From: Schizochytrium sp. TIO01 | Lineage: Eukaryota > Sar > Bigyra > Thraustochytrida > Thraustochytriidae | Length of the DNA stretch: 64,000 nt | Direction: 5' to 3' | Assembly (NCBI GenBank): GCA_004764695.1 | Contig: SMSO01000031.1 | Location: 9,335,761-9,399,760 of the forward strand | Shown: in pieces, positions 1 through 57,395 of the stretch | Position numbering within the stretch: the stretch's first letter is position 1 | Layout: each line of letters opens with the position of its first letter | Made by a program: the position numbers and the translations under genes | The notes under the pieces: model-generated | The model's input: only the letters and a program-made list of their open reading frames with translations | Database searches by the model: none | What the model was told of the DNA's origin: nothing

Positions 1-2551
1 GGTCTACTTAGCTGCGAGTTGCGACATACTGAGAACGTGTTTGCAATCACAATTTATAGTTATCACTTTTTACGTGATACAGGCTGAGATAATAAAATTA
101 TGGTCAAGACTTAGATTGTAATTGGAATGTCAAATACCTGTGGAGATAAGTAGGAGAAAATTATTCTAATACAATAATAAAAGTAAACTAATTCTACTAA
201 ACGCAACACTTGAAAAGAAGAAGAAACTATCGTTGACAACTCCTTAATCATTCTGAGAGAAATTGTTGCAGATGCATAAAATTTTAAAATCAATAATAGC
301 TGCTTGTTTTCAGCCATTTTTTTTAGAGCTGCAGTTTGATAAGCTTTATGTACGACTACAAACGTTGCTGATAATAATTGTATGAGAGGTGTTTTTAGGT
401 GCTGTTTAGTTAAGCACGGTCATCGCAGCACAGGTGTCATTGTTTTCTTGCCCAATGAATTATACGAGCAACTTCTAGAGTTGAGATTTTATCTGTCATT
501 AAATTCTAGTAACTATAATTGTTTGAGAACGGAGATTGTCTACACATTGAATTAGAGGTCTTTAGATTTATATATGCTTTAGCTCAAGTAACTTCAGTCT
601 TCGATTATGGACAGATCTAAGTATTCTCTATTGTGACCACTTGAATGACGAGGTAAAACTGGCCTGACAAAATCTTATTATAATAATTATTAATAAACAA
701 AACCAGGTAAGTAAGTAATCAGAGCTTCTTTCGGGGATGTCTCGCAGAGCAGACCATCGGTTGATTATTTTTTGTTCTTAAACACTAACTATGACGGGGG
801 AAGGGAAATGTTCAGATAGCAATGATGTTTGAACTCGTTCACCAACTCCTCTTTTAAAATTAAATTACTACATCGGCAAGGTTTAGCGTAGCTTGAAGCA
901 AACTGAGACCGCTTTGTCCTTTAAGTGTTATATATAAATACATAGCCTTCTCTATAAATTCAACGCTATACATACCTCTGTCTATCAAGGTCTACTTTGA
1001 AAAGTACTAGCACTTGAATTCTTCGAAAAAACAAAAACAAAAAAATTCATTCGGAATTGTATATGCCAAACCTAGCCCAATGCAAAATGGGTTTTTGTTG
1101 GTTTTGAAATAAGTTACTAAGGCATTATCTGCTGGTCTTGATAACAGCTCGCTAAATTGACCTATCACTCCAATAAACCTTCGGACATCGATTTCGTTCA
1201 ATAGATTCATCCCGCTCTGACCGTTCTTTTCTTTTCTTTTCTTTTCTTTTCCTTCTTCTTCTTCTTCTTCTCTACTAGTGATACCTTGATACCTAGGTAG
1301 GCCAGTCCAATAATATTATGGTTCATATTTTAACCTAGTGTTTTACTTACTTAGTAAGTAAGATCCTATGGTATCTATCCCGACATTCTCTAATACTAAC
1401 AATAGTGATGTAATTCTACGTTGTCCTGCTATATAGTTTCACACCCTCAGAATAAATAGTGGTATTACCTATTACCTCTAAACTTGGGTATCTAACTAAT
1501 CCTCTCTCACCAGTCAGAGGAAATTAAATTAGCTTAGTAAAACAATTACTCAGTGTGATTACTACCTGTGCCTAAGTATGTGCTACTTCTACTTCAACCT
1601 AAGTGAATGAATTGCGCATTCCTACCGATGCTTAATAGTAGTGTATAGGTTAGATACCCTAGCTAGATAGTAGGTACTTTGCGTCTTCTGAGGTAGTAAG
1701 CAGTGGGTGAGACTGTGAGAGTATGTGAGGTAATTTTCAACAACCAAAAGCTCATACTAGTAGCAGTACACTATGAGATGGTATTCCGTAAGAATAAAAC
1801 ACACTCTCTTTCTTTTTTCAAAGTAGTAGTACTAGTACTATTATTATGATTAGTAGTGGTAGTAGAAGTAAGTAAAAACTCCAGTCAAAACAACAAAAAA
1901 CTCATTTTAAACCAGTGGTAGATAGTAGTTACCTACTTTGTGCATAGGATCGGGACTTTATAATAAGCTTTTTACTAAGATTTTACCCTAGAAGGGCTGA
2001 TAGGAGTAGCTTCACCTCTGTCTACTAGCAGGCTTAACGCACCCTTTATAGAATACTCATCGATAAGATGACATCATATGAATAACTTCTCTAGCTAGAG
2101 TTTGATAAATGAACCTAAATGAAGGGAAGTGAATTTAAAAACCTAACTTCAAAGACCCTATTTCTTCTTCTATTATAATCATTATTATAATTATGATTAG
2201 GCCTATATTAGAACATTGCTACTACTAATATTATTCATTTTTATTACTTATAATTAAGTTTTTTTCTTTTCTTTTTTTTAATTAAAAAAATATAGGCAGA
2301 AAGAAAAATAAAGAAAGAATATAGACAGACTAAAATAGATACTGGAAAACTATATATAACATAGTGAGACTATATTGTATAGTAATAGAGTGAAATTAAT
2401 AAAATGAATGATTATTCAATTGATCACTCAATTATTCAACAAACAAACAAACAAGAGTCGTCTTGCTCGTGGCAGCCTCCTTCCAGCTGCGCGTGTCGGA
2501 GCACTGGCGCGTAGGCTTCTGAAGGACTTGCTTGCGACGTAGCAGAAGCCA
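1..2551. other. AT-rich intergenic DNA, no supported gene
   Basis: I see no credible coding region here. The sequence is AT-rich, with homopolymer and pyrimidine runs, TAGGTA-type motifs (for example near 1291-1304 and 1665-1676) and short stop-riddled frames. A minus-strand frame at 1007-1210 contains DVRRFIGVIGQFSELLSR, which faintly recalls the end of a gypsy-type reverse transcriptase, but it is too short to assign. The last about 100 bases are less AT-rich and probably hold the promoter and 5' leader of the gene at 2552. Confidence 0.6.
1225..1273. repeat. CTTTT/CTT pyrimidine microsatellite
   Basis: Several CTTTT units are followed by about seven CTT units, giving an almost pure pyrimidine tract on the plus strand. 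It lies in non-coding DNA. Confidence 0.85.
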
Positions 2552-4612
2552 ATGCAGCGGCTAGGTGGGACCCCTGTCGGTGGCTCTCCCGAACAGTCGG
2601 CGGGCTCTTTCGAAGACAGCATCAATAACCGGAATCGAAGGCACAGCACTGGCGCTGCTTTTTCTCCCTCTTCTTCACTCCCTGCTTCGTCCCCCGCTGC
2701 TGCTGCTGGTCCTTCTTCCTCCTCTTCAACTTCTGTTTCGTCTTCTCCACTCACCTCCTTTACTCCTTCGTTCCCTGCTCCTCCTTCTTCTAAAACCTCT
2801 TCAGCCTCTTCTGTCAGCAGTGCCAAAAATGTGGTGTCTTCTTCAGTGGGAAACAATGAACAGCGCAAAGCAATTCCAGAGGCAGTAAGTTCATACGGCG
2901 CTGTTCTCAGCACTCTGAGCGGCCTGCTTGAAGTTCTTAGCGACCCATCCCAACTTGAGCTTGAGGAGCTGCAAGAAGAGGAAATTCAAAGACTTTTGAA
3001 GGAATGTGAACAAGCACTGGCAGCTCGATCTGGAGCCACTGGAGGCCATTCGGGAACCTCAAGCTCCAGTAGTAGCAGTGGAAACACCAATAACCACACT
3101 ACTATGACGAAAAAGCATCCTTCGATTAAGGAAAATCCCAACGATATCAAGGTTCTTATTGTTGACGATGAAGAAGTTGCAGCACGTCTGATGTCTAATC
3201 AGCTTGCACAACTAAAAATCCGAAACGAGTGGGTCCTTAGTGGCAAAGATGCGCTCAACCGTCTATATGCTTCACCAGAGGAGTTCGACCTTGTTCTCTG
3301 CGATGTCAATATGCCTGGCCTCAGTGGCAGTGATGTGCTCGTGCGGATCCTCAAGCAAAAGCAGATTCGTGATATTCCCATCGTCATGGTTTCAACAGAC
3401 GACGATCTTGATAAAGCAAAGGAACTCGTGAGCGCAGGCGCAAAGGACTATATCGTCAAACCCGTAACACAGATTGCGCTGGTATCTATGTCGCTTAAAG
3501 TTAACGGATGGCGCCAGGAAAGCTCTACAAGACACCTGAAAGCAGTCTATGATATTACCTCAGGACTTCTCGTCAACGTGCGCCTTATTCTCGATCCAAA
3601 GCCCGGTGAGCAGCTACCGGATCTCCCCCAGTCCGTGGGACCTGGCGAGACTTCTTCGGGCCTCCTCAGCGATATTGATACTGATGATGTTCTTGTTCAA
3701 AACCTCATCAGCTCAATGAGTGCAGACCAGGTCGAAATTATCAAGGGTGTAGTTCAAGAGGCGTCTCTCCCAATGTGCAATCTACTGGGCGTCTCTAAGT
3801 CAGCCATTCAACAAGGATCCATCAATATCTTTGATTTTATTGCAGAGGAAGATCGCGCGACGCTAAAACAGCAACTCAAGGAATCGATTTTTGCGCAAAA
3901 CGATGAACGCCCCCATGAAAGGAAGATGCTTTGGCGCTGGCTAGATATTAACCAGTCCGAACTTCCGGTTGTTGGCAGCTGGATTCGCGTGGGTCCTGCT
4001 GCTGAACGACAGGTTCTAATTGAGAGCTCCTCACTGCTTCCAACCTTGATGCTCAAACGTGAAAAGGAAATGCGTGCCGATGCGGAGCGCAAAAAACAAG
4101 AGGCTGAGCAAGGTCGTGACTCCGCCCGTGCTGAGGCTAAGGCAGCAGCAATGGAGAGCCAGCGCCTCAAGGCTGATCTTAGCGTTACGAAGAAGACAGC
4201 AACTAGTGTACAACGAGAGCTCAATTCTATGCTTGGTATCCTACCTGACTTTCACAAAATGCTCAATGAGAACCCTCATGTGCTTACCTGGCGAATTGAA
4301 GTTGCAACGGGTAAAATTGATTTTGTCTCCAAAACTTCATGCCTTCAAATTCTTCACTACACGGATACTGAGGTTGTGGGTCATAACAATTCAGACTTTC
4401 TCCACCCTGATGACGCAGAGCTTGTCCGTTCAAGCTTTCAAGATACCAAAAAGGCCGTCCGGATTCGTCGATTCAATAAAGAGGGAGACACCGTTTGGCT
4501 TGAGTCACGTCCCTATGCTTGGTGGGACACGGCGTGCTCAATTGTTATTGTGACCGAATATGACATTACACGTTTTCATGGGGTTGGTGAATCGGTAACT
4601 GAAAATCATTGA
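2552..4612 (+). CDS. Response-regulator receiver protein with C-terminal PAS domain
   Basis: An intact 686-residue frame. Residues 1-100 are Ser/Pro/Ala-rich and probably disordered. A receiver domain spans about 199-320. Its acidic pair is D205-D206 in VLIVDDEE, the phospho-acceptor is D251 in LCDVNMPG, the switch Ser/Thr are S281-T282 and the conserved Lys is K303 in DYIVKP, so all phosphotransfer residues are present. Residues about 400-490 may be a weak PAS-like fold (NIFDFIAEEDRATL). A Glu/Arg/Ala-rich coiled coil follows (about 500-555), then a clearer PAS domain at about 565-680 (FLHPDDAELV, WLESRPYAW). There is no histidine-kinase, HPt or DNA-binding domain, so its output is unknown. 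I infer a cytosolic or nuclear phosphorelay or signalling protein. No kinase gene is nearby. The start is the first ATG of the open frame. Confidence 0.85.
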   Translation: MQRLGGTPVGGSPEQSAGSFEDSINNRNRRHSTGAAFSPSSSLPASSPAAAAGPSSSSSTSVSSSPLTSFTPSFPAPPSSKTSSASSVSSAKNVVSSSVGNNEQRKAIPEAVSSYGAVLSTLSGLLEVLSDPSQLELEELQEEEIQRLLKECEQALAARSGATGGHSGTSSSSSSSGNTNNHTTMTKKHPSIKENPNDIKVLIVDDEEVAARLMSNQLAQLKIRNEWVLSGKDALNRLYASPEEFDLVLCDVNMPGLSGSDVLVRILKQKQIRDIPIVMVSTDDDLDKAKELVSAGAKDYIVKPVTQIALVSMSLKVNGWRQESSTRHLKAVYDITSGLLVNVRLILDPKPGEQLPDLPQSVGPGETSSGLLSDIDTDDVLVQNLISSMSADQVEIIKGVVQEASLPMCNLLGVSKSAIQQGSINIFDFIAEEDRATLKQQLKESIFAQNDERPHERKMLWRWLDINQSELPVVGSWIRVGPAAERQVLIESSSLLPTLMLKREKEMRADAERKKQEAEQGRDSARAEAKAAAMESQRLKADLSVTKKTATSVQRELNSMLGILPDFHKMLNENPHVLTWRIEVATGKIDFVSKTSCLQILHYTDTEVVGHNNSDFLHPDDAELVRSSFQDTKKAVRIRRFNKEGDTVWLESRPYAWWDTACSIVIVTEYDITRFHGVGESVTENH

Positions 4613-6521: not shown

Positions 6522-7655
6522 TTAGTGATTACTCGTGGAAGAGGTTACTTCCGCAACAAGCTTTCTACCATATGGAGCGGCACAGTAATCTGCCCAAACA
6601 TTGAACGCAAGCATCGCAAGAGCTACGACCGGGGACAAGATTATTTCTACAGGAGCCCACCTTCCACGAGGCGTTATGTTAACGGAGCTTGAAATGAGGA
6701 GATTCTGAATGACATCAGGGGAAGGCAGGTGGTACTCTCCGTGTGCCAAGCCACTCAGCAATGTTTTCACGACAGACTCGGCAGAATAGATATCAGGGGG
6801 GCTGATTTGAGAGGTTTCTTTGGGTTTGCTTTTGTTTTCCTCCTTGAAACCAGGCGTATCCGTATCGGGTGGGTAGGCGATGTGAACACTAATTCCTGTA
6901 CCTTTCAGTTCATTCCGCAAAACATCGGAAAGGCCACGCAAAGCGGATTTGGTGGGAGCATACGATGCATATCCCAAGAATGCAGCACTAGCAACTGCCG
7001 ACGACAAGAAAACTATTTCACCTTTAGTTGCGCGTTCAACCATCATAGATGCTACAGTTTTAGCACAATGAACACTTCCCATATAGTTGATCATCATAGT
7101 ATCGTAAAAGATTGAGGGGTCTTGTTCGAGAAAGTAACCGGGCTGAGATCTGCCTGCTGCATGAATCAGTACCTGAATTGGCGCCCCATCTTGGAGACTT
7201 TCTGCCTTTTCCATTGCGGCTTGCACTTTAGCGTAATCAACTACATCTACAGAAACAGTCTGAACGTTTTCGCCTATTTGACTTTTGGCGTTAGCAAGCT
7301 TCCCCTCGTTACGTGCCATAATTGTCACCTTGGCACCGAGGCGATGGAACGCTTTTGCTAGTTCGAAGCCCATTCCTTCAGAACCTCCAGTGACAACGAC
7401 GTGCTTTCCAGCATACTGTGACAAAGGAGGTTAATGTAAAAAAGGGTGTGTTGATTTTATGTTGCTACTTATGTGAGTGTTTCTGTCATTGCAATCATGT
7501 GTAGCAGTTTCCATTGCTTGAACAAGCGAGTTTGCACGCTGGGAACATACCTTCTTCTTCATGTCTACTTTTCTAAAGTAAAGTTGGCATGCAACGATGG
7601 GAAGGGCTAGAGCCCCAAGCACACATATCGTGGCTACAATAGATGAGTCAAGCAT
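6522..7655 (-). CDS. KDSR: 3-ketodihydrosphingosine reductase (two exons)
   Basis: A short-chain dehydrogenase that reduces 3-ketosphinganine to sphinganine with NADPH, the second step of sphingolipid synthesis at the ER. Exon 1 (7655-7551) encodes 35 residues with an N-terminal membrane segment (ATICVLGALALPIVACQLYF). Exon 2 (7415-6522) holds the Rossmann motif TGGSEGMG, an NYMGS segment, the catalytic Ser (FLSSAV), the YAPTK Tyr/Lys pair and YPPDTDTPGF, a hallmark of this family. A hydrophobic stretch lies near the C-terminus. Joining the exons keeps frame at lysine codons and gives 332 residues, the usual length for the family. An apparent Met at 7424 is a TTG codon inside the intron, which confirms that the N-terminus comes from exon 1. 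Confidence 0.92.
7416..7550 (-). other. Spliceosomal intron in the ketodihydrosphingosine reductase gene
   Basis: On the minus strand the intron begins GTATGT right after three Lys codons and ends CCTCCTTTGTCACAG just before the codons for YAGKH. It is 135 bp, phase 0, with a pyrimidine-rich 3' end. It is the only intron I can support in this window. Confidence 0.88.
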
Positions 7656-8179
7656 TGTAAGTCGAAACGGCCAGGCGTCTAAAGACGCAATAGCTGTTGC
7701 TCCCCGCTCGCTCCGCTATCAGGAGGCTTGTGCTCTGTTGCAAGTTTGCAAAGTGATATGACTACTCCATACATATACTTCTAACTAGGTACTATGGGTG
7801 CTTACTAGAAGTATTACCTAGCAGCAGTCCACAGTTTGCTCAAAATAGCGTCGTCGACTAGCACCCCGGGCGCACCTACTGGGAGGTGGCTTTTCCTCAA
7901 TGACGCACGAATATCCAAGAACTCAACCAACCAGAGTACTTTCATGAGATATCTCACTGCGAGGTGACCCATAGTACTGTGTGGTTTCTACTCCGCGTCA
8001 GACACATGCTTAAATCTTTTCAAAACATGAAGTAATTGCTACCTTCTACTGGTAGTAAATGTCAATTTTGAGTTCTACTGCCAGTGTACCTCTGAAAATG
8101 TTAGAGCTGCTGATAAATTATAATTATTTAGGTCTTTCAGTTGTTTTAATTTAAAAAGAATTGGAGCCTAGGTAAGAAA
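7656..8179. other. Intergenic region upstream of the ketodihydrosphingosine reductase gene
   Basis: The minus-strand promoter of the reductase gene should lie in the first few hundred bases. TAGGTA-type motifs occur near 7784-7820. I see no gene. Confidence 0.45.
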
Positions 8180-8239
8180 ATGGAATGGCTAAGGAACCAA
8201 CAAGCTCCAAACACTGCAAGTAAAGGAAACCTTCAATAC

Positions 8240-8535
8240 AAGCCAGCAAAGTACTTCACCCAAAAGTTTGGTGTCTCAGGAGGCACCCTTCGGGTACTTC
8301 CCTGGAGGCAATTGGATATACACACGTGACAACATTGAGCGCACTTTGGCTGCGGTTTGCGAGTAACGCGGCCATCACCTACGCCATAGTGTCCTCTGTC
8401 AAATAAAAAGAGGATTTCAAACGCCAGGTTGGTGATCTTCAGCGTGCCTACCCAGACGCCTCCGCAATTTCAAAGACAGTGGTAGCGGGGTCAACTTCAA
8501 GAAGCCAGGCTTTCCCGCCCTACTGGACTACCGGT
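8240..8535 (+). pseudogene. IS607 serine recombinase (TnpA-like) fragment
   Basis: The helix-turn-helix portion is closed by TGA at 8327. The catalytic portion resumes near 8365 and has an internal TAA at 8404, just before KEDFKRQ, followed by a frame change before KDSGSG near 8466. In intact relatives these motifs are continuous and catalyse DNA strand exchange by a serine-DNA link. The fragment covers roughly the N-terminal two thirds of such a recombinase. Confidence 0.8.
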
Positions 8536-8559
8536 ATGCACTGCAAGCTTGCACTTTGG

Positions 8560-8850
8560 CTCTGTGGAAGCTACAGTGTTATCCTTTTGTCTAAATTTGA
8601 AGCCTCAACAAGGTAACAAGACGGATAAAATCAGGACAGCCCGAATGGTGTATCGTTAGCTTCCGACAAGCGCTCACTCACATAGCCGAGTCTTCCCCTA
8701 CCAGTGGTCTAAACTGTTGCACTTTAAAACCATGCAATGAATGTGGTAACATCCACGACAAGTTATGAACATCCAAGGTTTTCAAATACCCAAATGCAAA
8801 CACGTAGCTGATTGTGATATTCACGCTGCCAGAGGCATCTTTTTACGCTA
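8560..8850 (+). pseudogene. TnpB/Fanzor-like RNA-guided nuclease C-terminal fragment
   Basis: Frame 8622-8765 is open and runs through SFRQAL to CNECGNIH, the first half of the zinc ribbon. A TGA at 8766 and a frameshift near 8793 follow. The second Cys pair is damaged: one position reads Tyr in FKYP and the other is found only in the shifted frame. The last motif reads D-C-D-I-H-A-A-R where the family has D-R-D-x-N-A-A-R. These changes fit single transitions of CGT to TGT and similar decay. About three quarters of the protein is absent. Confidence 0.75.
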
Positions 8851-9028
8851 GACATGAATTAATTACAAATTGTCTTTGAGACACGGGTCAGTTTTTAACT
8901 CGCGTCCGCGATTGGGCCTTGACCCCACGTCACCATAGAAAATGCACCTTTTGCAAATTTTATGGGCCAATCTCTAAGTGATGAAATGCAATGATGTGTA
9001 CGTCGACTTTGGGTATCAGTCTATGCCG

Positions 9029-9430
9029 ATGCTGAGATATCCAGTTGATTGAAAGGACTAGTGGACAAGATATTGCTAGAGATCTAGGCGTTCCATTGCA
9101 AGACCTCATGGATTTAGGACCTTTATAGGCATAGAACTAGACAACCAGACTTGGGTGATTGAGAAGCCATGAGCCGAAAGCGTGCATACATATTAAGTAT
9201 GGTACAACTTTTATTAAATGGTTGAATAGGTTGAATTAACCTAACTTCGTCATCTCTATCTAACACAGGTCAAGCATATCTTAGCCCAAATGAATCGATC
9301 TGTCTTGGAATTTATTTCACAAGGACAGCAGTTCGCTAACTCTCAAAATCAATCTCTTAATGCCTTTAGTCGAGACTCCTGCCTTCTCTTCATAGTCAAC
9401 CACCAGCTGATCAAATTCATCCTTCAGCAG
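9029..9430 (+). mobile_element. MITE-like element, copy A (402 bp)
   Basis: Bounded by ATGCTGA on the left and TCAGCAG on the right, and flanked by a 3-bp direct repeat CCG (9026-9028 and 9431-9433). It shares blocks with the other copies in the same order: ACTAGTGGACAAGA near the left end, GGTTGAATTAACCTAAC, GGACAGCAGTTCGCTAACTC, and the CTTCATAGTCAACC region near the right end. The left end reads TSGQDIARD, then LGVPL, in one frame. It lies about 180 bp beyond the IS607 relic. Confidence 0.8.
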
Positions 9431-36233: not shown

Positions 36234-36438
<205 letters not shown>

Positions 36439-45786: not shown

Positions 45787-45859
45787 TTCTCCGTGGCGGG
45801 TTCGAACCGCCGACCTACAGATTAACAGTCTGACGCTCTACCAACTGAGCTAACGGAGA
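45787..45859 (-). tRNA. tRNA-Asn(GUU), copy 1
   Basis: 73 nt on the minus strand. Acceptor TCTCCGT pairs with ACGGAGA, discriminator A. D stem GCTC/GAGC with loop AGTTGGTA, anticodon loop CTGTTAA (GUU), T arm GGCGG-TTCGAAC-CCGCC. No intron and no encoded CCA. T-rich sequence just downstream can terminate Pol III. Position 27-43 is a U-U mismatch in every copy. Confidence 0.95.
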
Positions 45860-45962
45860 CCTGATCCTCAATGACCAATCATTGCCACTGCGTTACTTCC
45901 GATTTGCTCAATATCATTATATTTATTTCAAAAAGGTACATTGTTTTACAAGAAAAAATAAA

Positions 45963-46035
45963 TTCTCCGTGGCGGGTTCGAACCGCCGACCTACAGATTA
46001 ACAGTCTGACGCTCTACCAACTGAGCTAACGGAGA
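45963..46035 (-). tRNA. tRNA-Asn(GUU), copy 2
   Basis: Identical to copy 1. Downstream is a TTATTTTTTC tract on the minus strand. A GATCATT motif lies 22-28 nt upstream of the 5' end. Confidence 0.95.
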
Positions 46036-46377
46036 AAGCTATCGAACTGATCCTGTGATCATTCACACGAGCTTGATCAGAATTTGCGCTGCCTAGCCTG
46101 GTTCGTACGGCATGAATTTAAGAGACAGAAAAAAAAGGAAAAAAAAAGTATCTACTTAATCACAACCTCGCTTCATGGAGTACCCAGACAAGTTAAGGTC
46201 ATAGCTACGAGGGTATTGTTTTAGAAAAAGAGACCATAATTAATCATTATTACTTTATATCTCGTGACTCTTCTTTGATTATTCAACACCATCTGATTGT
46301 CAAAGCTCCTTTTTTGAAAGTAGTTCTAAGAACCAACCAAGAAGTAATTTTTTATTTATTTTTTTAAAAAGGCAATC

Positions 46378-46450
46378 TTCTCCGTGGCGGGTTCGAACCG
46401 CCGACCTACAGATTAACAGTCTGACGCTCTACCAACTGAGCTAACGGAGA
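46378..46450 (-). tRNA. tRNA-Asn(GUU), copy 3
   Basis: Identical to copy 1. It and its 5' flank are duplicated as copy 4: both carry GATCCTGTGATCATTCACAC upstream and the same longer spacer. Confidence 0.95.
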
Positions 46451-46639
46451 AAGCTATTGAAATGATCCTGTGATCATTCACACGAGCTTGGTAACAATTG
46501 CTGCTACTCATCCTGGTTCGTAGGCTAGTAAACAGAGAGAAGAAGAAAAAAAAAAATACATGACTAAGCATAACCTCACTAGAAAAAATGTTCAAAGTGG
46601 AAGAACAAAGCTTTTTTGGTTGTTTATTTTAAAAAACAA

Positions 46640-46712
46640 TTCTCCGTGGCGGGTTCGAACCGCCGACCTACAGATTAACAGTCTGACGCTCTACCAACTG
46701 AGCTAACGGAGA
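46640..46712 (-). tRNA. tRNA-Asn(GUU), copy 4
   Basis: Identical to copy 1. The 3-4 and 4-5 spacers are near-identical, showing tandem duplication of a unit of about 262-269 bp. Confidence 0.95.
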
Positions 46713-46908
46713 AAGCTATCGAACTGATCCTGTGATCATTCACACGAGCTTGGTCACAATTGCTGCTACTCATCCTGGTTCGTAGGCTAGTAAACAGAGA
46801 GAAGAAGAAGAAAAAAAATCTACCTAACTAAGCACAACCTCACTAGAAAAAATGTTCAAAGTGGAAGAACAAAGTTTTTTGGTTTTTTATTTTCAAAAAA
46901 ACAAAAAA

Positions 46909-46981
46909 TTCTCCGTGGCGGGTTCGAACCGCCGACCTACAGATTAACAGTCTGACGCTCTACCAACTGAGCTAACGGAGA
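46909..46981 (-). tRNA. tRNA-Asn(GUU), copy 5
   Basis: Identical to copy 1. The upstream flank has GGATCATTCC and a CTGGTTCGTAGGC segment related to those of copies 2-4. Confidence 0.95.
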
Positions 46982-47200
46982 GGACTATTGAAATGAACCT
47001 TGGATCATTCCCTGGTGGCTGGTGAGAATATGCGCTGCCTAGCCTGGTTCGTAGGCCATCAAACTGAGACAGACAGGGAAGAAAAGCAAAGAAGAAAAGG
47101 GGAAAAAAGAGTTATCAAGCACTAACTCGACTTTATGAATTGCACATGGTTGTAGATTTAGATGCTCCTAGGGACTAGAGACCAAACAAAAAAAAAAATG

Positions 47201-47273
47201 TTCTCCGTGGCGGGTTCGAACCGCCGACCTACAGATTAACAGTCTGACGCTCTACCAACTGAGCTAACGGAGA
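47201..47273 (-). tRNA. tRNA-Asn(GUU), copy 6
   Basis: Identical to copy 1. The upstream flank AGCTATCGAAGCGATCTTGA leads into GATCATT, about 21-27 nt from the 5' end. Confidence 0.95.
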
Positions 47274-47650
47274 AGCTATCGAAGCGATCTTGAGATCATT
47301 ACCGAAGGTGACACAATTGTGCCTGTGCTTCCTTTCATTGGTTGGGGATGGATTTTTCACAAGAAGAAAGAAAAAAAAACTAAGCATTAAGAAATGCTAA
47401 TTCAAAACCTACTAAATGCCACTTTATCAACACCTACAACAACATCATAACACTTTCAACTACTACCAAAGGTTTATTGGTAATTGGTCACAACAAACAC
47501 AATTCTAGAGTGCTTCTGTACATCGCGATGAAATTTGCTAATAAGGAAAGTATATATTTCTTTTCGTATCTTGCATTAAAAACAGCTTCCACTTCAAGTT
47601 GGTAGGAAAAAACTGCCAGTAATTTCCAATATTTTTTTGTTAAAAAGGAA

Positions 47651-47723
47651 TTCTCCGTGGCGGGTTCGAACCGCCGACCTACAGATTAACAGTCTGACGC
47701 TCTACCAACTGAGCTAACGGAGA
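47651..47723 (-). tRNA. tRNA-Asn(GUU), copy 7
   Basis: Identical to copy 1. The flanks differ from copies 2-6, and no clear GATCATT motif is seen upstream. Confidence 0.95.
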
Positions 47724-47820
47724 CTTGAATTCCACAAATCGGATATCTGTCAGAATAGCTCAGGAATATTTATTCATTTTCCTAACTATATTTTTATAGA
47801 AAGAAGAAAAAATGAAAGTT

Positions 47821-47893
47821 TTCTCCGTGGCGGGTTCGAACCGCCGACCTACAGATTAACAGTCTGACGCTCTACCAACTGAGCTAACGGAGA
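47821..47893 (-). tRNA. tRNA-Asn(GUU), copy 8
   Basis: Identical to copy 1. GGTCATTG lies about 22 nt upstream of the 5' end. Confidence 0.95.
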
Positions 47894-48007
47894 AGATACT
47901 GAGGAACCAACTTGGTCATTGTGGTTTCTTGGCAACTACATCTTCACTGTTTTACATATAGCTTTGGTTCATATTTTTTGATTCCCAATTTAAAAAAGAA
48001 AAATAGC

Positions 48008-48080
48008 TTCTCCGTGGCGGGTTCGAACCGCCGACCTACAGATTAACAGTCTGACGCTCTACCAACTGAGCTAACGGAGA
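48008..48080 (-). tRNA. tRNA-Asn(GUU), copy 9
   Basis: Identical to copy 1. A CAATGATC motif, the reverse complement of the usual GATCATT orientation, lies upstream. Confidence 0.95.
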
Positions 48081-48179
48081 TTGCAATTATCGGATGATGC
48101 CCAATGATCTCAGTTGTTCTATAATATTGCCATCCTAAAATTCTCTTTTTAAGAGAGAAGCAAATCTTTCAAAAAAGAA

Positions 48180-48252
48180 TTCTCCGTGGCGGGTTCGAAC
48201 CGCCGACCTACAGATTAACAGTCTGACGCTCTGCCAACTGAGCTAACGGAGA
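48180..48252 (-). tRNA. tRNA-Asn(GUU), copy 10 (D-loop variant)
   Basis: As copy 1 but with T to C at D-loop position 20 (TTGGCAGAG instead of TTGGTAGAG). The stems are unaffected. Confidence 0.95.
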
Positions 48253-48355
48253 TCTAATTCGTTGACTGGGTTTTGCTAAGAGACTGCACGTATATATAAT
48301 TGTTTAATTCACATAATTGAACAAAAATAAAACGATTAAAGTCAAAAACAAAATA

Positions 48356-48428
48356 TTCTCCGTGGCGGGTTCGAACCGCCGACCTACAGATTAACAGTCT
48401 GACGCTCTGCCAACTGAGCTAACGGAGA
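48356..48428 (-). tRNA. tRNA-Asn(GUU), copy 11 (D-loop variant)
   Basis: Carries the same D-loop T to C change as copy 10. The upstream flank CAGCTATCATT partly matches the motif of the other copies. Confidence 0.95.
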
Positions 48429-48514
48429 CAGCTATCATTTTCTATACCCAACAGCTAACAATATGAATACATATAACTTGGCTTTGTACAATGTTTTAAA
48501 TGAAAAAATAAATA

Positions 48515-48587
48515 TTCTCCGTGGCGGGTTCGAACCGCCGACCTACAGATTAACAGTCTGACGCTCTGCCAACTGAGCTAACGGAGA
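48515..48587 (-). tRNA. tRNA-Asn(GUU), copy 12 (D-loop variant)
   Basis: Carries the same D-loop change. CAATGATCAG lies 12-20 nt upstream. This is the last gene of the dense array. Confidence 0.95.
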
Positions 48588-49545
48588 ATATTAAATCTCA
48601 ATGATCAGATTAGTCTCGACAATTTGTTTGAAATATATAAAGTTTAGTTGGAGTGGAAGAATTTCAAGAAATTGATACTATCGCTTTTTTTTTTATTAAC
48701 TGACGAGTGAGAGTGACTAGATAACATTTGTGTATTTCATGGTAAAAGGTCCTTTTTTTAAGAATCTGCAAATGAACCTTTACAAGCATACATATGTTAT
48801 AAACTTATGTATGCAATTAGCATTGGTGAATTAACTTCGATGTGATGAGTATAAAAATTGATGTGGATAAGTTTACAGTGACTAAGACACTCCTGTTTAA
48901 GTGGATGTTCACAGAAGTTTGTCGTTATACAAGTTCTAACATATGAGTTCTATTTCCATCAATGTGCACATACGTTATCTCCTCGTTTATTTAGTAAAAG
49001 TTCTTTGTACATATGTATTTCATTCAGTGAATACGTCGTGGCCTTGTAGTAAAAGTCTGTCCTTAAAATATTTCCTTTTATAATAGTTATCCTAGCTTAA
49101 GGGTGCCTTAAGTTGCTTAATACTTTACGTTAACTCTAAATCACAACTCCAACTATATGCGTGCATCCTTCCTGCAAGGATTTGTAGCTTAGTGTGCTAT
49201 CAGAATCTATCCCTAGGGGACGTGGCAACAGAAAGTACATATTCATTATGGGTACCACAAGTGGACCCTTATCATTCGGGAGGTTGACAGATGCAGCATC
49301 CAGTCGACATGTAGATGTGGTGCATGAACACCAAGGATGTTTGACTCTCGAAGTAGGGATCTGTTGTTTTGGTAAACTACCTCGAGTCTTGCCATCATTA
49401 CGGTTGTTGAATGAAGCCTCACGGGTTATAATATTGCTCATGGATATATGATAAGGTGAGAGTTTGACCGATCTTCAACTGTGCACTTTGATTTCGTTTG
49501 GTTGCAATTCAGAGAGCGCTCAAAGCTTAATTGATGCTTATGTAA
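48588..49545. other. Intergenic DNA, no supported gene
   Basis: AT-rich. Two overlapping frames at 49136-49451, one on each strand, have slightly higher complexity, but I recognise no motif and they may be mobile-element debris. Confidence 0.4.
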
Positions 49546-49958
49546 TTGCTGAAAGACGATTCTGGCCAGCTTGAGGTTGACCGCAAAGACGAAGGCAACG
49601 GTCTTGATGAAGGCTTTAAGAAGGTTTGATTGAAGATTTATAAAACTGCTGTCCTAGATAATATACTCTAGGACAGATAAATTTATGAAGTAATTAATTA
49701 TTCTAATAGATTCTTGAGAGGTTTTAGAGATAGTTGGTGGGGTTGGTTTAATGCAACCTCTTCAGCCATAGATTCAAGTTACACCACACTTGGACATATG
49801 TAATTTGTAGTCGCTCTTTTGGTTCTTGACTCTGGCTGCCTACTCTTGCTCTAATGTAAGCCCATATTTACGAGGGTTTCACAAAGGGATGCCAAGAGCT
49901 CTAGCAATGTCTTGTCTACTAATTCCTTCGATTGGAGATTTCATTGGAGATTTCAGCA
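49546..49958 (-). mobile_element. MITE-like element, copy C (413 bp)
   Basis: Ends are TTGCTGA and TCAGCAG. Flanking triplets (TAA, CCT) do not match. It aligns over its length with copy B in the same orientation. A 14-base internal duplication near 49931-49957 accounts for the extra length. Read on the minus strand, its left end encodes SPIEGISRQDIARALGIPL before a stop. Confidence 0.75.
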
Positions 49959-50112
49959 GCCTTCGAATGCAATAATATTGCATTCCCTGGCGTTTCACGG
50001 AAAACGAAAAACTTACGATTGACTTAGATACAATTCTGAACTGCATTGGATCTAGTCGAGAAGTTCGCTACGTTGGTCAACTACAGTATTCGTTCGTTTA
50101 TATCTTTTTTTA

Positions 50113-50316
50113 ATGCTGAGATTTTTAATTGAAGAAATTAGTGATTGCCTTAACCTCCTAATTACTATATGAAACAGTCTGCCTTGAGATTCAGCTCCCT
50201 GCTGACAGCATTTCGCTAACTCTAACTCCTTTAGGAAAACTTCTTAAAAGCCTTCATCAAAACTTGCCTTCATCTTCTTGGTCAACCTCCAGCTGCCTGG
50301 ACGTACACTTTAGCAA
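50113..50316 (+). mobile_element. MITE-like element, copy E, internally deleted (204 bp)
   Basis: It has the left end ATGCTGAGATT...AATTGAAG and the right end TTAGCAA, but lacks about 200 bp between the left-end ATTAGTG block and the CCTTAACCTCC block. Flanking triplets are TTA and TTG, which match at two of three positions. Confidence 0.65.
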
Positions 50317-50718
50317 TTGATTCCGTCTCAGTAACGCTAAGATCATCGTGAGCGTGCATGATGCTGTGCTGTATAGAGGCATCACTGAAGGTAGCTTTGC
50401 TCATAAAAAAGTGGCAAATGGAGAACAAATTAAGCATAGTCTGGGTATTGAGGCTGTATATGAACAACCCTGCAAGGGTTTTATTTGAATAAGCCTTTTT
50501 TAGATTATACCATAGCCGAGTAACTCACTATCCTGGTTATACGCATATTTAATGCCTTGGCTTGTTGGCTAAGATATCTGTGCAGATGTGAAGAATCAAG
50601 GCGATTTGCTTACGTCTGAACAGCCAATATTTGAACGACAATAAGATTGTAGTAACCGTTGCCTGGGTACTCCTTTCACGAAAGTCGTTTACTTTCATTT
50701 GTTTTAAATACCTTGTAT

Positions 50719-51025
50719 CTCTAAATCTTCAATCGAAGATACCTTTCTCCAAAACATGACAGAGTTCTCAGTGTCTCATGGAAGGTCCCTGTACCATCAG
50801 TTCTCGCACAAGAATAGAAGAAGACAATTAAGTGCATGGTTGTTTAAGAAGAAGTCTCACAAAAACAAATGCGCACATGGGTTCAATTTGATTAGATTGG
50901 CGACATCGTAAACTTTTCAGCTAAACATATTCCGGATCAAGTCTGACCTAGGCTCCTATTGATACTACAGATCAGTCTACCCTGAACTCTGATATCAAGG
51001 ACAGCAGATTGCTAACTCTAGGACC
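50719..51025 (+). mobile_element. MITE-like element, copy G, truncated by nested copy B
   Basis: Degenerate left-end similarity (CTTCAATCGAAG, then CAAAACATGACAGAG) begins near 50719. The internal block GACAGCAGATTGCTAACTCT lies at about 50999-51019, and copy B is inserted directly after it. The expected right end is not clear beyond copy B. Confidence 0.5.
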
Positions 51026-51430
51026 CTGCTGAAAGGTGATACTGATTAGCTTGAGGTTGACTGTGAAGATGAAGGCAGGAGGCTTTAAGAAGGCTGATTT
51101 ATGAGTTAGCGAACTGCTGTCCTGGATAATGGATTCCAGGGCAGATGGATTCATATAGTAATAAGGGAGATTAGGACATTCTTGAAAGTAGTTAGAGAGA
51201 ATCTATGGGGTTAGGTTAGTTCAACTTCTCCAACCATCGATTCGAGTTACACCATGCTTGGATGTAGGTAGTGTGTATTCACACTTCACGTTGGCTCTGG
51301 CAGCCACATGAGTCTGGCTGCCTATTGTTGCTCTATTGTAAACCTTATGTCTAACGGGCGCTTACAAAGGGACACCAAGAACTATAGCAATGTCTTGTCC
51401 ACTAGTTCCTCCGATTGGAGATCTCAGCAG
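51026..51430 (-). mobile_element. MITE-like element, copy B (405 bp)
   Basis: The best-preserved copy. It has perfect 7-bp inverted termini CTGCTGA / TCAGCAG and a perfect 3-bp target duplication ACC (51023-51025 and 51431-51433). It is inserted within an older copy of the same family. Its left end, on the minus strand, reads SPIGGTSGQDIAIVLGVPL and then stops. Confidence 0.82.
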
Positions 51431-51492
51431 ACCCAAAACATACAGATCCCTCCTATACACTTTCCAAGCCGAATGGAAAACTACGCCAAACC

Positions 51493-51866
51493 TAGCTGAG
51501 ATATTCATTCGAAGAGACTAGGGGATTCAGAACTTACTCGTGAATAGACGTTTAAACAGATTTGCGTGGCTTCGAAGTCAAGAATCAAATGCGTACATAC
51601 ACATTCGCTAGAATAAAGTATGGAGGGATATATATACATGGATTATTTGAAAGATTCATCAACCTAGCCTTGCCAAGTATGTCTAATACAGGCCTAGTAT
51701 GTCTTAGACTCTGGATTACAACATGAACCAGTCAAAGGACAGCAGGCTGTGTGCTCTTGATCTCATAGACTATCATGCCTTCTTACGCCTTTTTGCAGCC
51801 TTTACCTAGCCTTTTCCCTTCATCTTCATAGTCAAGCTTTAGCTGACTAAACGTGTCTTTCAGTAA
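51493..51866 (+). mobile_element. MITE-like element, copy F (374 bp)
   Basis: Ends are TAGCTGA and TCAGTAA. Flanking triplets ACC and GCC match at two of three positions. It shares the AAGTATGG, ATGAACCAGTC, GGACAGCAG and CTTCATCTTCATAGTCAAGC blocks in family order. Confidence 0.68.
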
Positions 51867-53439
51867 GCCTCTTGTTTTATCATTTTAGTCAATTTTGTGC
51901 TGTCTAAACTCGCCTCCCTTCCTTGTTATTTTCATAGGCAAGAGCAAATGAGATTAGAAACCCACACATTCCATTTACTTAGGCTGTGTTCCAATTGTAT
52001 CATTACAGGTACTACAAAAGAGGTTTTAGCGGTGAAACACACAAATACTTGGTACCGAGAATTAGAATTAGATTCTCAAATGTTGCATTTTAAGGTACTC
52101 TGTAAATGTATTTACCTTATTTAGGAGCGACCCGCTATACTTAGATGAATAGAATACTAAACATTCATAAAAAGCTAAACTTTATATGATACCTTAATGG
52201 TCGACTGGGTCTCACGATAATGTTTTTCCATTTGTCACATACTCCTATAGATCAATAATTTGACTGTGGGACGCCGATGATGGAAAGTTGTCGATCAGAG
52301 TTCAAAAGAGAAAAAACTGCCCGTAGAGTTTCCCAACAGGGAATATCGTTCAGACCCTTCCAAATTATACCTACGCATTACTTATACATGTCTTGGGATG
52401 CTTCATTTCCTTCTTGTGTCATCGTCAATCAGCATTTAAGAGAGCCAAAATAATTTCTGTAAAACCAGATATGCTTGGACAACATATGAAAGGGTATATT
52501 CAGCATAGTCTTATGAAGTTGAGGTTAGCCGTTTTCACTTTTCGACGAGTAGAGTATCACTAGTGTTGAAGACGTTGCGAAGAAGAAACCTTCAAAATAC
52601 TCCATCCGTAACTTGTATATGATAAAATCACCAAAACTGCCGGCTTAAAGGATGATTGGTCATCTATAATGTACAGAGTACTTATGGAGCTATGATTCAG
52701 ACGTCACAATTGTGTTCTGGGAGTCCTAGAGAAGAAAACATTCATGTAACCTGGTAAGTATATTTGAATTACTGCATTTTCTGTGACACTGATAAACAAG
52801 ACCCTGAAGCTATTATGCACCAAAAGATCACATTTTTTTTGTTTAACCGATGAGTTTTGAAAATGGGAAAATATCTGAAGGAATGAGTGAGAACTCCAGC
52901 TTCTTCTTGTCTCAGGATGTAGAATGAACGAGTGAGGTACTGCGTAGCTTCGAATAGAAAGGGTGCAGTAGTCAAGAACAGCATATAGGGTTGCAAGGTA
53001 TTATCCTTTCATAGGTTTAGCATTGTAAATTAAGCTATTCTACTAATCTATCGTTTCACCTTTGGATCTGAAGGCTTAATTCTAGTGTGACTCCTTGAAC
53101 CCATATTTTAGCCAAACTCTTCGAAGACTATGCAACTCTTACGGTAAGTGCTAGGTGGTGAAGAGACAGGGAAAAATGAGGTTCTGCATTTTCTGCCATG
53201 GTATTCATTTCCCTCTTCTACTTGGTAGTGAAATCAAAATTCAAACAAGGATTTCCCATAAGAGGTACGCTGACTCGGAGCACAAGGTATTGATGTTAAA
53301 AAGAAAGCACAGAATAGAATAATATCATACCTAACTCAAAGGTAGTTTTAGATTCTACAACATGAGTGGGATTTCATTTAAATAAAAATAAAAATACAAT
53401 AACAATAAAAATAACAATGAAAATAAAAATAAATAAAAC
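51867..53439. other. Intergenic DNA, no supported gene
   Basis: AT-rich, with frames of 60-75 codons only. None carries recognisable motifs. Confidence 0.45.
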
Positions 53440-53512
53440 TTCTCCGTGGCGGGTTCGAACCGCCGACCTACAGATTAACAGTCTGACGCTCTGCCAACTG
53501 AGCTAACGGAGA
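53440..53512 (-). tRNA. tRNA-Asn(GUU), copy 13 (D-loop variant)
   Basis: Carries the T to C D-loop change of copies 10-12, although it lies about 4.9 kb beyond copy 12. The upstream flank is CTTCATTGATCGG. Confidence 0.95.
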
Positions 53513-53953
53513 CTTCATTGATCGGTGATACCACTGCGCCAATGTCTGCTAATAAGTAAATTGAAGTATTTTGAATTTGTCGTGAAATTATACCAGTCTC
53601 ATACATCCTTGCTGCGTAACAGTAATTAAAAACACACACTTGGTTTGAGCATTGTGTTCCTCTATCGATTATGCAGATTAGATCAGATTAGATTGGATGC
53701 TTACTGCATTTTCAAGGAAATAGTGATAGTAAGAAGCTTCCTGAGTATTAAGATAGCAGGATTTTTCATATACCTTTTTCTTAATTCATCACATTTACGA
53801 AACCCTGCTACAGAGACTCTGTCTTAGTGCCTTTCTCTTGAATGCCTGTTTTTGCTTGCGCATTGATGGAGGATTAAAAGTAGAGAATACCTCTCGTAAT
53901 TATAATTATGTATTTTAAAAAAAATGTAGAAATTATAAATTAAAAATAAAGAT

Positions 53954-54026
53954 TTCTCCGTGGCGGGTTCGAACCGCCGACCTACAGATTAACAGTCTGA
54001 CGCTCTACCAACTGAGCTAACGGAGA
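53954..54026 (-). tRNA. tRNA-Asn(GUU), copy 14
   Basis: Identical to copy 1. AATCATTG lies about 10-15 nt upstream of the 5' end. Confidence 0.95.
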
Positions 54027-56009
54027 GCACATGAAATCATTGCTGAGAACACGATCTTCCACATCGCACCATTGGTCATCTAGTATGGGTCAGTAACAAT
54101 CAGTCAAATAAGAAATCATAAATCTATGATGTGAGATGATGGTAATGGAAATTCTCTGTATCTTACATTTTAAGCATAGGTAGAGTTTGATTGATAGCAG
54201 ATAAAGTGAGAACTTTTATGTAATCATTGTAAGGGTTTGTGTTTTATAGCTGATCGACACAAAAGTAGATTTCAAGCATTGCTTTTTCCAAATTTTAAGC
54301 TGCTGTTAAGTGTTATCAAGTAGGACTCACTGGATTGATAGACTGCTGTACACGAAGGCTGCGACCCAATACAAACCTCTTTACCGCATTAGCTATGTAC
54401 TAACCTATACATGTTCATTTTAATATTTGCTTTCTCATGGTTTAGAGGCACTGTTGGGTTACAGGGCTTATAACGTACTAAAACTTGAATCTTTATGATT
54501 TGAAATTTTGAACTATTTTGGGTGTCAAACCTTAAATTTTAACAACCCAATTGATTATCTTAAGCTGTGTGGCATTTATTTGTACCTTTGGTCTATTTCT
54601 GATGCACTCTTTCGCACAGACATATCATTCTCAGTTTCTCGATTCAAACGCTATCATCGCTTTCAATGTATTTTCTCTGTCAATAACAACTTCAAACCTA
54701 AGATAACTATCATGATCATGCTGTGTTGATTACAGTGACATTTCAGTGCTTCGTTCATAAAGTATTTATCGTGTTTTGGGTTAGTGAGCAACTCACAAAT
54801 AGTTTATATTAACCCCTCCAGTATCACAATTTCACCCTTTCTCTCTATTAAAGCTCAATATCTCTAAAATTTAGGCTTTTCATTATACCATAACTATGTT
54901 AGTCCTCTTTTGAGCTTCAAGTTCATAGAGTTCCTGTCGTCACAAACTAAGGGTGACTTTTTCTTTTCTTTACAAAATTAAATTAAATTACTATAGTCCA
55001 TTCTGAGAAGCAAATTTGTTATTCTCACAGACATGTATGCTAAAAATTTATTTGCAAGGCTATAGCAATAAAACAACGCGGTGGCTTTGCTCTGTGTTAA
55101 ATTGTTGAGATTTAAAGCTTCTCTTCTCACAACTGAAAATGGCATTTCACGAAGAGAGAACTGCAGCAGTTCATCGAAGTTCTTTATTCGTCTCCAAAAC
55201 TGTTAACTTTCATTGATCATATTGACAGTCAGATAGTTTCATGTTCTTGTGTCGTTTCGAACCTGTCTATACTATTTGCTACTCGTTTGAGGCCTTACTT
55301 TGCGTATTAGTGACTCTGGCTTGACCGGGACAATGTACTATGATGCGCCATCAGGAGGTGTATCAAGTAGATTGCAGTAGACCTAGTTGGCTGGCCGTGC
55401 GTTCAGATGTCTTGCTTTGCTCAACGAAATGGCCATCTCTATAATTTAAAGCTGGAACCCGACTAAGTAACTAATTTACTCTTTTCAAAATCTCCCCTAA
55501 TACAACACTAAGCGAAGATCTGACAGTTCTATGTTTAATCTGTAACTCTACGTTACGTTAAGAGGTATCAGGCCTTGTCTTTATCTATGTATCAGTATTG
55601 TTTTATCTACTCTCCTTGCACCTGACGTACTATTCTATGCCCCTTCATACTGCTATAACAAGGGTCATGCCAGTAGTATGCTACTTTGATGCTAAGATAA
55701 TTCGTGTACATAGGCTTATAGAAAATTCTCCTACAAGTTGCGAACTCTTGGAATAAAGATATTCGATGAATTTTCCTCCTTTTTACTCTGTTCAGTTCAT
55801 GCCTTACTCATTAAATTTAACTAGCAGCTATTTACAATCAATTACTATACCCTGTCAGCTTTAGAAAACGCAATTGCAGTGAGACAATATAACCCAGTGC
55901 ACTTCTTTATAAAGGAAGTGTATTATCAGTTAACAAGAGACTCAACTTTTATAGATCAGAGATGTACACCTCGGGTTTTAGAAGTGCTCAACTGATTCGA
56001 CTACTCCAA
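54027..56009. other. Intergenic DNA, no supported gene
   Basis: AT-rich. A near-perfect inverted repeat centred on TTTATAAAG (about 55900-55920, CACTTC...GAAGTG) is the only structure noted. No coding evidence. Confidence 0.45.
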
Positions 56010-56444
56010 AAGCTGAGAACTCCAATTGAAGCAACTAGTGGGCAACACGATTCAAGAGTTGCAGGCGTTCGATTGTAATCCCTCAAAGATCCAGGATCTA
56101 AATAGGAACAGAACTAGGCAATAGAGATACACGGCTGAGAAGTCAAAACTGTGATATACGATAAACGAGAACCAAAAGTATAGTCTAGAATCAAGTATGG
56201 TAGACGTTAAATTGATGGTCGAGAAGACAAGTTGGCCTAACCTTGAATTGTGTTTAGTTCATGTCAAGTCTGTTTTAATTCTATGTATAGCGTACATCAG
56301 GATGCATTTTGAGTTCAATTTAAATGATAGCAGATTGCTAGCTCTTAAAGACATAGAGTATCAAGTCTTACTTAGACCTGCATCATAATTCTTGCCTTCA
56401 TCTTCATAGTTAACATCTACCTGACCAGATTCATCCTTTAGCAC
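56010..56444 (+). mobile_element. MITE-like element, copy D (435 bp)
   Basis: More diverged termini (AAGCTGA, TTAGCAC) but a perfect flanking triplet CAA (56007-56009 and 56445-56447). It shares CAATTGAAGCAACTAGTGGG, AAGTATGGTAGA, GATAGCAGATTGCTAGCTCT and CCTTCATCTTCATAGTTAAC in family order. Confidence 0.75.
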
Positions 56445-57322: not shown

Positions 57323-57395
57323 TTCTCCGTGGCGGGTTCGAACCGCCGACCTACAGATTAACAGTCTGACGCTCTACCAACTGAGCTAACGGAGA
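57323..57395 (-). tRNA. tRNA-Asn(GUU), copy 15
   Basis: Identical to copy 1, isolated 3.3 kb beyond copy 14. ACTCATTGA lies about 12-20 nt upstream. Confidence 0.95.

Follow-up and report, generated by a model that had tools for sequence, protein, structure and literature searches.

An apparently dead, internally deleted IS607 transposon copy in a thraustochytrid-like genome, its recent Fanzor2-encoding relatives, and a putative nuclease start inside the transposase gene

Transposons of the IS607 family, such as IS607 of H. pylori and the ACa-1/2 and ISvMimi elements in the available text of Bao & Jurka 2013 (PMC3627910), encode a TnpA that combines a MerR domain with a serine recombinase, followed by TnpB. 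They insert at a dinucleotide core, given as GG in the accessible parts of PMC6188088 and PMC10711439, and carry a structured RNA at the right end of tnpB. Their open reading frames "often overlap" (PMC6188088, excerpt), and overlapping and separate gene types have both been described (PMC9956272, excerpt). For eukaryotes, IS607/Fanzor2 elements appear in Table 1 of PMC3627910 (in its available part) for few lineages. Fanzor2 and pro-Fanzor TnpB proteins, according to the accessible sections of Yoon et al. 2023 (PMC10711439) and Saito et al. 2023 (PMC10432273) and to entry 9b0l, have a DPG motif in RuvC-I and an IS607 partner, a Pro in place of the canonical RuvC-II Glu, and an alternative Glu six residues before the zinc ribbon. 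Two Fanzor2 proteins with disordered N-termini of 96 and 61 residues are described in PMC10432273, the available text of which relates neither to tnpA.

The elements described here resemble the IS607 family in gene order, in insertion at a dinucleotide core and in a structured right end, but their core is AG or TG rather than GG, their tnpB frame extends back through the catalytic domain of tnpA, and they are accompanied by numerous internally deleted, non-autonomous companions. They share the DPG motif, the altered RuvC-II and the IS607 partner with Fanzor2 and pro-Fanzor TnpBs. Unlike those proteins, they have a predicted N-terminal extension of about 100-190 residues encoded within tnpA, and the zinc ribbon that the published pattern (in its accessible text) requires is readable in only 8 of 67. 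The short companions are comparable to MITEs and other non-autonomous DNA transposons in being short and multi-copy, in keeping their ends while having lost coding capacity, and in having autonomous relatives in the same genome; unlike MITEs, they are of the serine-recombinase type and keep 300-350 bp of each gene together with the right-end RNA region. The main interest of the locus lies in its live relatives and, on statistical grounds, in the apparently overprinted start of their nuclease.

The window is the whole stretch of DNA that was analysed, 64,000 nucleotides long. The sequence-only reading had placed in it, at 8180-8850, a relic of an IS607-type transposon with TnpA and Fanzor/TnpB parts, its motifs co-linear on one strand in the expected order and spacing. 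Three-frame translation of window 8000-9100 recovered all of the quoted motifs in the correct order on the plus strand, with YFTQKFGVSGGTLR and DCDIHAARGIFLR in frame 0, DSGSGVNFKKPGF, SFRQAL and CNECGNIH in frame 1, and TYAIVSSVK*KEDFKRQ and LLSKFEAS in frame 2. The profile check proposed at the time gave a single weak Pfam match among five separate pieces of the window copy (TNB domain, E 0.0063); because this separate-piece search was nearly silent, family alignments were used, and the case rests on the DNA level, where the matches are decisive. By blastn, window 8150-8528 matches tnpA of an intact IS607 copy in the same genome (E 5e-57), and window 8536-8850 matches tnpB of the same copy, in collinear order (E 3e-22), which bears out the assignment to the IS607 type. 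The two blocks lie about 1.2 kb apart in the full-size element, and this stretch is absent from the window copy, so the expected order of the parts holds and the expected spacing does not. What is kept amounts to approximately the first 134 codons of tnpA and the 3' quarter of tnpB/Fanzor2.

The element is also larger than first proposed. In a 26-copy alignment the family majority frequency is 0.73-0.91 across most of the element and about 0.47 beyond approximately 8084-8980, and both ends are recognisable, with TG at both junctions (TG followed by TACC at the 5' side, CTCTAAG followed by TG at the 3' side). Its parts are:

8085..8980, plus strand: entire non-autonomous, internally deleted IS607/Fanzor2-derived element, core to core dinucleotide (from family majority frequency and aligned ends)
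8085..8179, plus strand: left end and 5' leader, with the TG core at 8085-8086 first (from 26 copies and two autonomous elements aligned)
8180..8528, plus strand: tnpA remnant with MerR-like helix-turn-helix and the first part of the serine-recombinase catalytic domain, with stops and frameshifts (from motifs and blastn)
8529..8535, plus strand: junction of the approximately 1.2 kb deletion, autonomous position ~955 joined to ~2151 (joint common to five copies compared)
8536..8850, plus strand: remnant of the 3' quarter of tnpB/Fanzor2 with RuvC-II, alternative Glu region, zinc ribbon and RuvC-III (from motifs and blastn)
8851..8980, plus strand: 3' untranslated right end, probable remnant of a guide-RNA (reRNA/omegaRNA) scaffold, with the TG core at 8979-8980 last (from right-end alignment and the fold of the autonomous equivalent)

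As a whole, the feature is very probably a dead non-autonomous copy of an IS607 transposon, and it belongs to a large family. A 671-bp query from the window gave at least 43 genome matches, itself included, among the best 40 of 196 first-pass candidates scored; the non-self matches are 67-81% identical, apart from one 36-bp fragment at 89%. A second family member as query also gave at least 43 matches (best 40 of 231 candidates scored), and the union of the two 40-place lists amounts to at least 55 places in the genome, a lower bound that includes some partial copies. As closely as the alignment can tell, the five short copies that were compared (the window copy, L010, L011, L013 and L016) have the same deletion joint: the tnpA block ends at position 900-963 of the autonomous element and the tnpB block begins at 2151-2157. 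This common joint identifies the window copy as an internally deleted, non-autonomous derivative, of a family that keeps both ends and shares its coding deletion among many copies, as far as the five joints represent them. A search of phage DNA with the short element gave no match, and no internally deleted derivative of this kind in eukaryotes was found in the literature searched.

The history of the short family can be read from its divergence. Among the 26 of 40 fetched short copies that were aligned at full length (14 partial or gapped ones were left out), members differ from the family majority by 14.2% on average (11.2-17.8%) and from one another by 25.6%, with C-to-T and G-to-A the commonest changes. 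Divergence among copies is flat over the three codon positions (0.15/0.13/0.136 and 0.148/0.127/0.135), and the third-position excess that we looked for in these 26 copies was not seen. In contrast, when the family majority is compared with the full-size copy L049, differences concentrate at third positions, with 16/119, 13/122 and 41/121 at the three positions of the tnpB part and 20/123, 11/123 and 27/124 in the tnpA part. The founder was therefore coding and the copies are not; it derived from a protein-coding lineage already distinct from the present-day family, and its copies afterwards decayed neutrally. Such a pattern points to long residence, or repeated invasion, of IS607-Fanzor2 elements in the host lineage. 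An ancestral element with TnpA and Fanzor2 lost a central stretch of about 1.2 kb, and the shortened element multiplied to the at least 55 matching places where it is now in neutral decay. Its multiplicity and its related ends suggest that the short copies were moved in trans by the TnpA of a lineage with a TG core.

The sequence-only reading implied a complete element that had decayed, and ordered motifs broken by stops and frameshifts would indeed fit a single IS607-Fanzor element worn down in place by random deletions and frameshifts. However, the same internal joint occurs in the five copies compared with autonomous elements, and the short form is matched at near full length in many places, with at least 595 bases covered by 29 of the 43 listed matches, so that decay of a complete element in place is very improbable and the window copy is better described as a member of a deleted family. 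We give just as little weight to the possibility that the short element is a functional gene, encoding a fused TnpA-TnpB mini-protein that selection maintains, such as a DNA-binding regulator or an inhibitor that has been domesticated. The copies are numerous and the family majority is stop-free in the coding frame of both kept blocks, but open majority frames are expected if the founder was recently coding, and the window copy has stops and frameshifts. The divergence among copies, equal at the three codon positions, led us to reject a domesticated mini-protein.

Intact copies had been predicted elsewhere in the genome, and profile and DNA searches of the genome found intact TnpA and Fanzor2 frames. 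The TNB profile has 41 matches, 31 of them above the cut-off, the Resolvase profile matches 28 places, and the tnpB stretch is found at 18 places with 91-100% identity, followed by places at 88, 82 and 79% and then by shorter pieces (33 matches). There is thus a diverged full-size sister family with about 18 recent copies, several with both genes intact. These elements span approximately 2.2 kb, or 2.5 kb with an insertion (right end read in 15 copies, left end in 13), and in the pairs compared the similarity between copies stops at the element ends. An intact TnpA of 232 codons is present in 8 of 15 full-size copies and the Fanzor2 frame is open in 14 of 15; DPG, alternative Glu, zinc ribbon and DRD are intact in all 14 open-frame copies. 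The full-size copies encode a MerR plus serine-recombinase TnpA: the catalytic part of L049 scores 118.2 bits against the NCBIfam model NF033518 (transpos_IS607; cut-off 110) and matches PF00239 at E 6.8e-20, and the MerR-like N-terminal part was recognised by eye and by alignment. The lineage had been said to have once hosted such a transposon; the hosting stands, and "once" is an understatement, as near-identical copies with unrelated flanks, one of them within an older copy, indicate recent activity. In three copies (L053, L055 and L057) tnpA has a shared insertion of about 295 bp within its MerR part and also a stop, with the Fanzor frame kept. As these copies occupy separate loci, they seem to have transposed with TnpB as their only gene product. 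A simple intron was not adopted as an explanation for the insertion, as there is no GT at the alignment edge.

Right ends terminate in AG in 15 of 15 full-size copies. On the left side, AG is no more than about 8 bases away from a conserved CAAAA in 11 of 13 copies and directly before TATG in only 4 of the 13, the others having a variable spacer; the spacer between AG and CAAAA varies in both length and sequence. No constant duplication is seen across the 13 copies, although L050 and L053 share three more bases after AG on both sides. In the old short family TG is found at the 5' junction in 11 of the 18 copies matched by a pattern and at the 3' junction in 15 of the 26 copies in the alignment, the latter read by eye because the pattern for right ends often hit wrong places. 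The insertion of one full-size copy, L062, into an old short copy in reverse orientation is particularly informative. Joining the L062 flanks with a single AG gives a sequence that aligns over the junction with 25 of the 40 old copies fetched, the best being L024 (ATAG joined to ACAC; 78% over 176 bp). Rejoining at a single AG is what exchange over a 2-bp core predicts, and together with the 15 AG right ends it agrees with exchange at a matching dinucleotide. TnpA would join matching dinucleotides via a circular intermediate, and the TG core of the old family suggests that the TnpA which mobilised it probably came from a lineage with a different core. Two of the 13 full-size copies, L062 and L056, sit inside or at most approximately 100 bp from an old short copy, head to head (among the fetched loci), which may hint that old ends are preferred targets.

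The right end of the full-size elements has a strong predicted fold (-48 kcal/mol, z -4.2, a value reached by 0 of 200 shuffles) and occupies the position of known reRNAs. RNAalifold retained 10 pairs over 15 right ends, at -4.13 kcal/mol, three of them with double changes; given this weak consensus fold, our claim is for the retention of the region and not for a working guide RNA, and the data do no more than hint at a functional scaffold in the short copies. The 3' end of tnpB together with the right end of the short copies may have supplied guide RNA to Fanzor2, and a guided Fanzor2 would cut vacated or unoccupied sites, favouring retention of the element.

The nuclease belongs with Fanzor2. 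The best PDB sequence match of the TnpB is mimivirus Fanzor2 (9b0l, E 2.9e-19). In an AF2 model of a 601-residue transcript protein (mean pLDDT 73.5), Foldseek again found 9b0l as best match (E 2.7e-18, TMt 0.59, with a large rmsd of 11.2), so the predicted fold is that of TnpB/Fanzor. Residues 1-71 of this model are disordered and the blocks over 71-100 have mean pLDDT of 70-85. In the model of the bacterial protein L094, the same P-Y-W motif is followed by a short helix over residues 83-91 (block mean 85), the extension being otherwise mostly disordered; the alignments behind the two models share some proteins, so they are not fully independent. All 14 open-frame copies have DPG and the alternative Glu and lack the canonical Glu. 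Over the wider clade (67 rows, from 69 relative loci minus three under 250 residues plus L049), DPG is present in 67/67 and the alternative Glu in 64/67, the three misses being short or broken pieces, and canonical controls score 0/5. The CxxC...CxxC pattern is recognised in 8 of the 67 rows, and many of the TnpBs L094-L162 are without it, so searches that require a zinc ribbon will miss many DPG/alternative-Glu TnpBs.

Ten full-size copies have an exact tnpA start and lack the insertion. Their open Fanzor frame measures 661-682 codons and spans the whole of tnpA as its +1 frame, which is free of stops there, against 4-7 stops in the third frame. For L049 alone this is a modest depletion (0 stops vs 3.3 expected from shuffles, P 0.014), and therefore the case rests on the whole clade. 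The short-family majority has no stops in 133 codons of the +1 frame of tnpA and 6 in the third frame, which suggests that the open frame was already present in the ancestor of the window copy. Relatives that are about 45-48% identical, a Durusdinium protein among them, have N-terminal extensions that align to the +1 reading. Relatives' DNA was collected through TnpB motifs, blind to tnpA, from 40 loci on genome contigs and 29 on viral contigs; in a first alignment scan of viral contigs 18 stretches matched and none was confirmed. The bacterial members include the isolates Thiorhodospira sibirica and Halochromatium salexigens and several MAG lineages, and not only cyanobacteria. We kept 35 entries, dropping those with a short tnpA match or open frame or with a match ending before TnpA residue 200, and removal of entries at least 80% identical left 25 distinct tnpA genes.

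In these 25 genes the +1 frame contains 42 stops vs 131.8 expected from synonymous-codon shuffles, and the +2 frame 321 vs 330.2. The depletion is concentrated in the catalytic two thirds of tnpA, with 2 stops vs 81.3 expected, whereas the MerR third has 40 vs 43.8; as controls of this domain split, the +2 frame has 210 vs 216.4 and tnpB itself 436 vs 392.1. The 37 other ORFs of the loci have 626 stops vs 650.6 expected. A Microcoleus phage (L171), a cyanophage outside the set of 25, has 0 vs 2.7. Eight tnpA genes of IS607 elements outside the clade show 76 stops vs 77.2 expected, and the six of them with a canonical TnpB 65 vs 66.2; the canonical signature was established by alignment for five and read separately for Bealeia, and the Nostoc and Lactobacillus plasmid controls, with no annotated TnpB beside tnpA, are not among the six. 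The Moraxella control alone is lowish (9 vs 12.9, P 0.018); in the other frame, Bealeia has few stops (8 vs 14.2, P 0.001). Together with the motif tallies, these counts indicate that the overlap accompanies the pro-Fanzor/Fanzor2 fingerprint given in the accessible text of PMC10711439.

Conservation of the encoded residues points in the same direction. Comparison between elements shows that the +1 products of the catalytic part resemble one another far more than shuffles do (z 39). Similarity in the +2 frame lies above the null as well (z 11.8), so shared ancestry or nucleotide constraint explains some of the signal, and the MerR part shows no excess similarity (z -1.7 and 0.0). Individual +1 residues, quoted from among the strongest columns tested, are near-fixed: a Trp in 25/25 elements (null 5.4) and a Leu in 25/25 (null 9.2), with further Trp residues in 22/24 (null 5.7) and 18/25 (null 4.5). 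A +1-frame ATG falls at TnpA codons 40-43 in 17 of 23 usable elements vs 12.1 expected (P about 0.002). A +1-frame stop is found at the codon 37/38 junction in 10 of 25, and in most of those ten the open frame begins just past the helix-turn-helix. Strong statistics thus argue for an N-terminal extension of Fanzor2/TnpB that begins inside tnpA in the +1 frame, both proteins being read from one DNA; leaky scanning could start both in eukaryotes. We consider it likely that some 100-190 N-terminal residues of these proteins are overprinted on the tnpA catalytic domain and translated, with a P-[FY]-W ... LW ... SWF motif, in bacterial, viral and eukaryotic members and not in elements with canonical TnpB; separately, the short copies could be stand-alone guide-RNA sources for Fanzor2 encoded elsewhere.

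A stop-free +1 frame might instead result from codon-pair or nucleotide bias, or from constraint on the RNA, and be untranslated. The elevated +2 similarity would fit this, as would the purely statistical nature of the support for the overlap. However, bias does not readily account for an effect confined to the tnpB frame and to the catalytic two thirds of tnpA when the other controls are near expectation, nor for near-fixed +1 Trp residues, nor for the ordinary stop counts of the six canonical-TnpB elements, and we regard this explanation as unlikely. Alternatively, TnpB could be reached through a programmed +1 frameshift from tnpA, giving a MerR-TnpB fusion with no internal start. That the frame mostly opens just after the helix-turn-helix in the elements with a stop at codons 37/38 would suit such a fusion, but the excess of ATG at codons 40-43 modestly favours an internal start, and we find a frameshift quite improbable. 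The reading we prefer is that of an internal start within tnpA. No long, selected overlap through the tnpA catalytic domain was found in the available parts of PMC3627910, PMC10711439, PMC9956272, PMC4058570, PMC10432273, PMC11423790 and PMC6188088 or in wider literature listings (subscription papers and ISfinder lay outside the scope). In the Microcoleus phage record (My-WqHQDG, OR578706.1) only the long TnpB frame is annotated, at 1464-3149 of the locus, and an intact overlapping tnpA is unannotated.

If the overlap is translated, the N-termini of Fanzor2 and pro-Fanzor proteins may often be mis-annotated, as gene callers must pick one frame, and constructs begun at a downstream Met would miss a conserved module. 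The overlap would tie transposase and nuclease together genetically and provide a new fingerprint of the pro-Fanzor/Fanzor2 clade. It would also offer a reason why the two stayed together in the lineage that entered eukaryotes.

That the DNA is from a protist nuclear genome, as had been supposed, is almost certain for its eukaryotic nuclear origin, given a 9.8 Mb contig, a 64 Mb assembly and the matches of a neighbouring gene. The gene at window 6525-7427 (minus strand) is, by its matches, a 3-ketodihydrosphingosine reductase, whose protein shows 99% identity to one from an MMETSP transcriptome and 78% identity to Hondaea fermentalgiana, which we take to be a thraustochytrid; the host thus looks thraustochytrid-like. 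Another MMETSP protein matches the L055 Fanzor frame at 99.2% identity, which indicates that at least one Fanzor copy is transcribed in the host species or a close strain. This protein was called as an ORF with its start within the overlap, and the copies closest to it have a broken tnpA. Thraustochytrids are culturable, and with about 18 recent full-size copies beside an older deleted family the biology of Fanzor2 becomes testable in an apparent thraustochytrid. Elsewhere in the window, an array of 15 tRNA-Asn (GTT) genes occupies 45787-57395 on the minus strand (11 at 70.8 bits and 4 at 68.3), twelve of them within 2.8 kb, and a tandem unit of approximately 262 bp repeats in 46378-47010. A perfect (TTGA)51 array at 36235-36438 lies in a 252-codon stop-to-stop frame that is likely not a gene.
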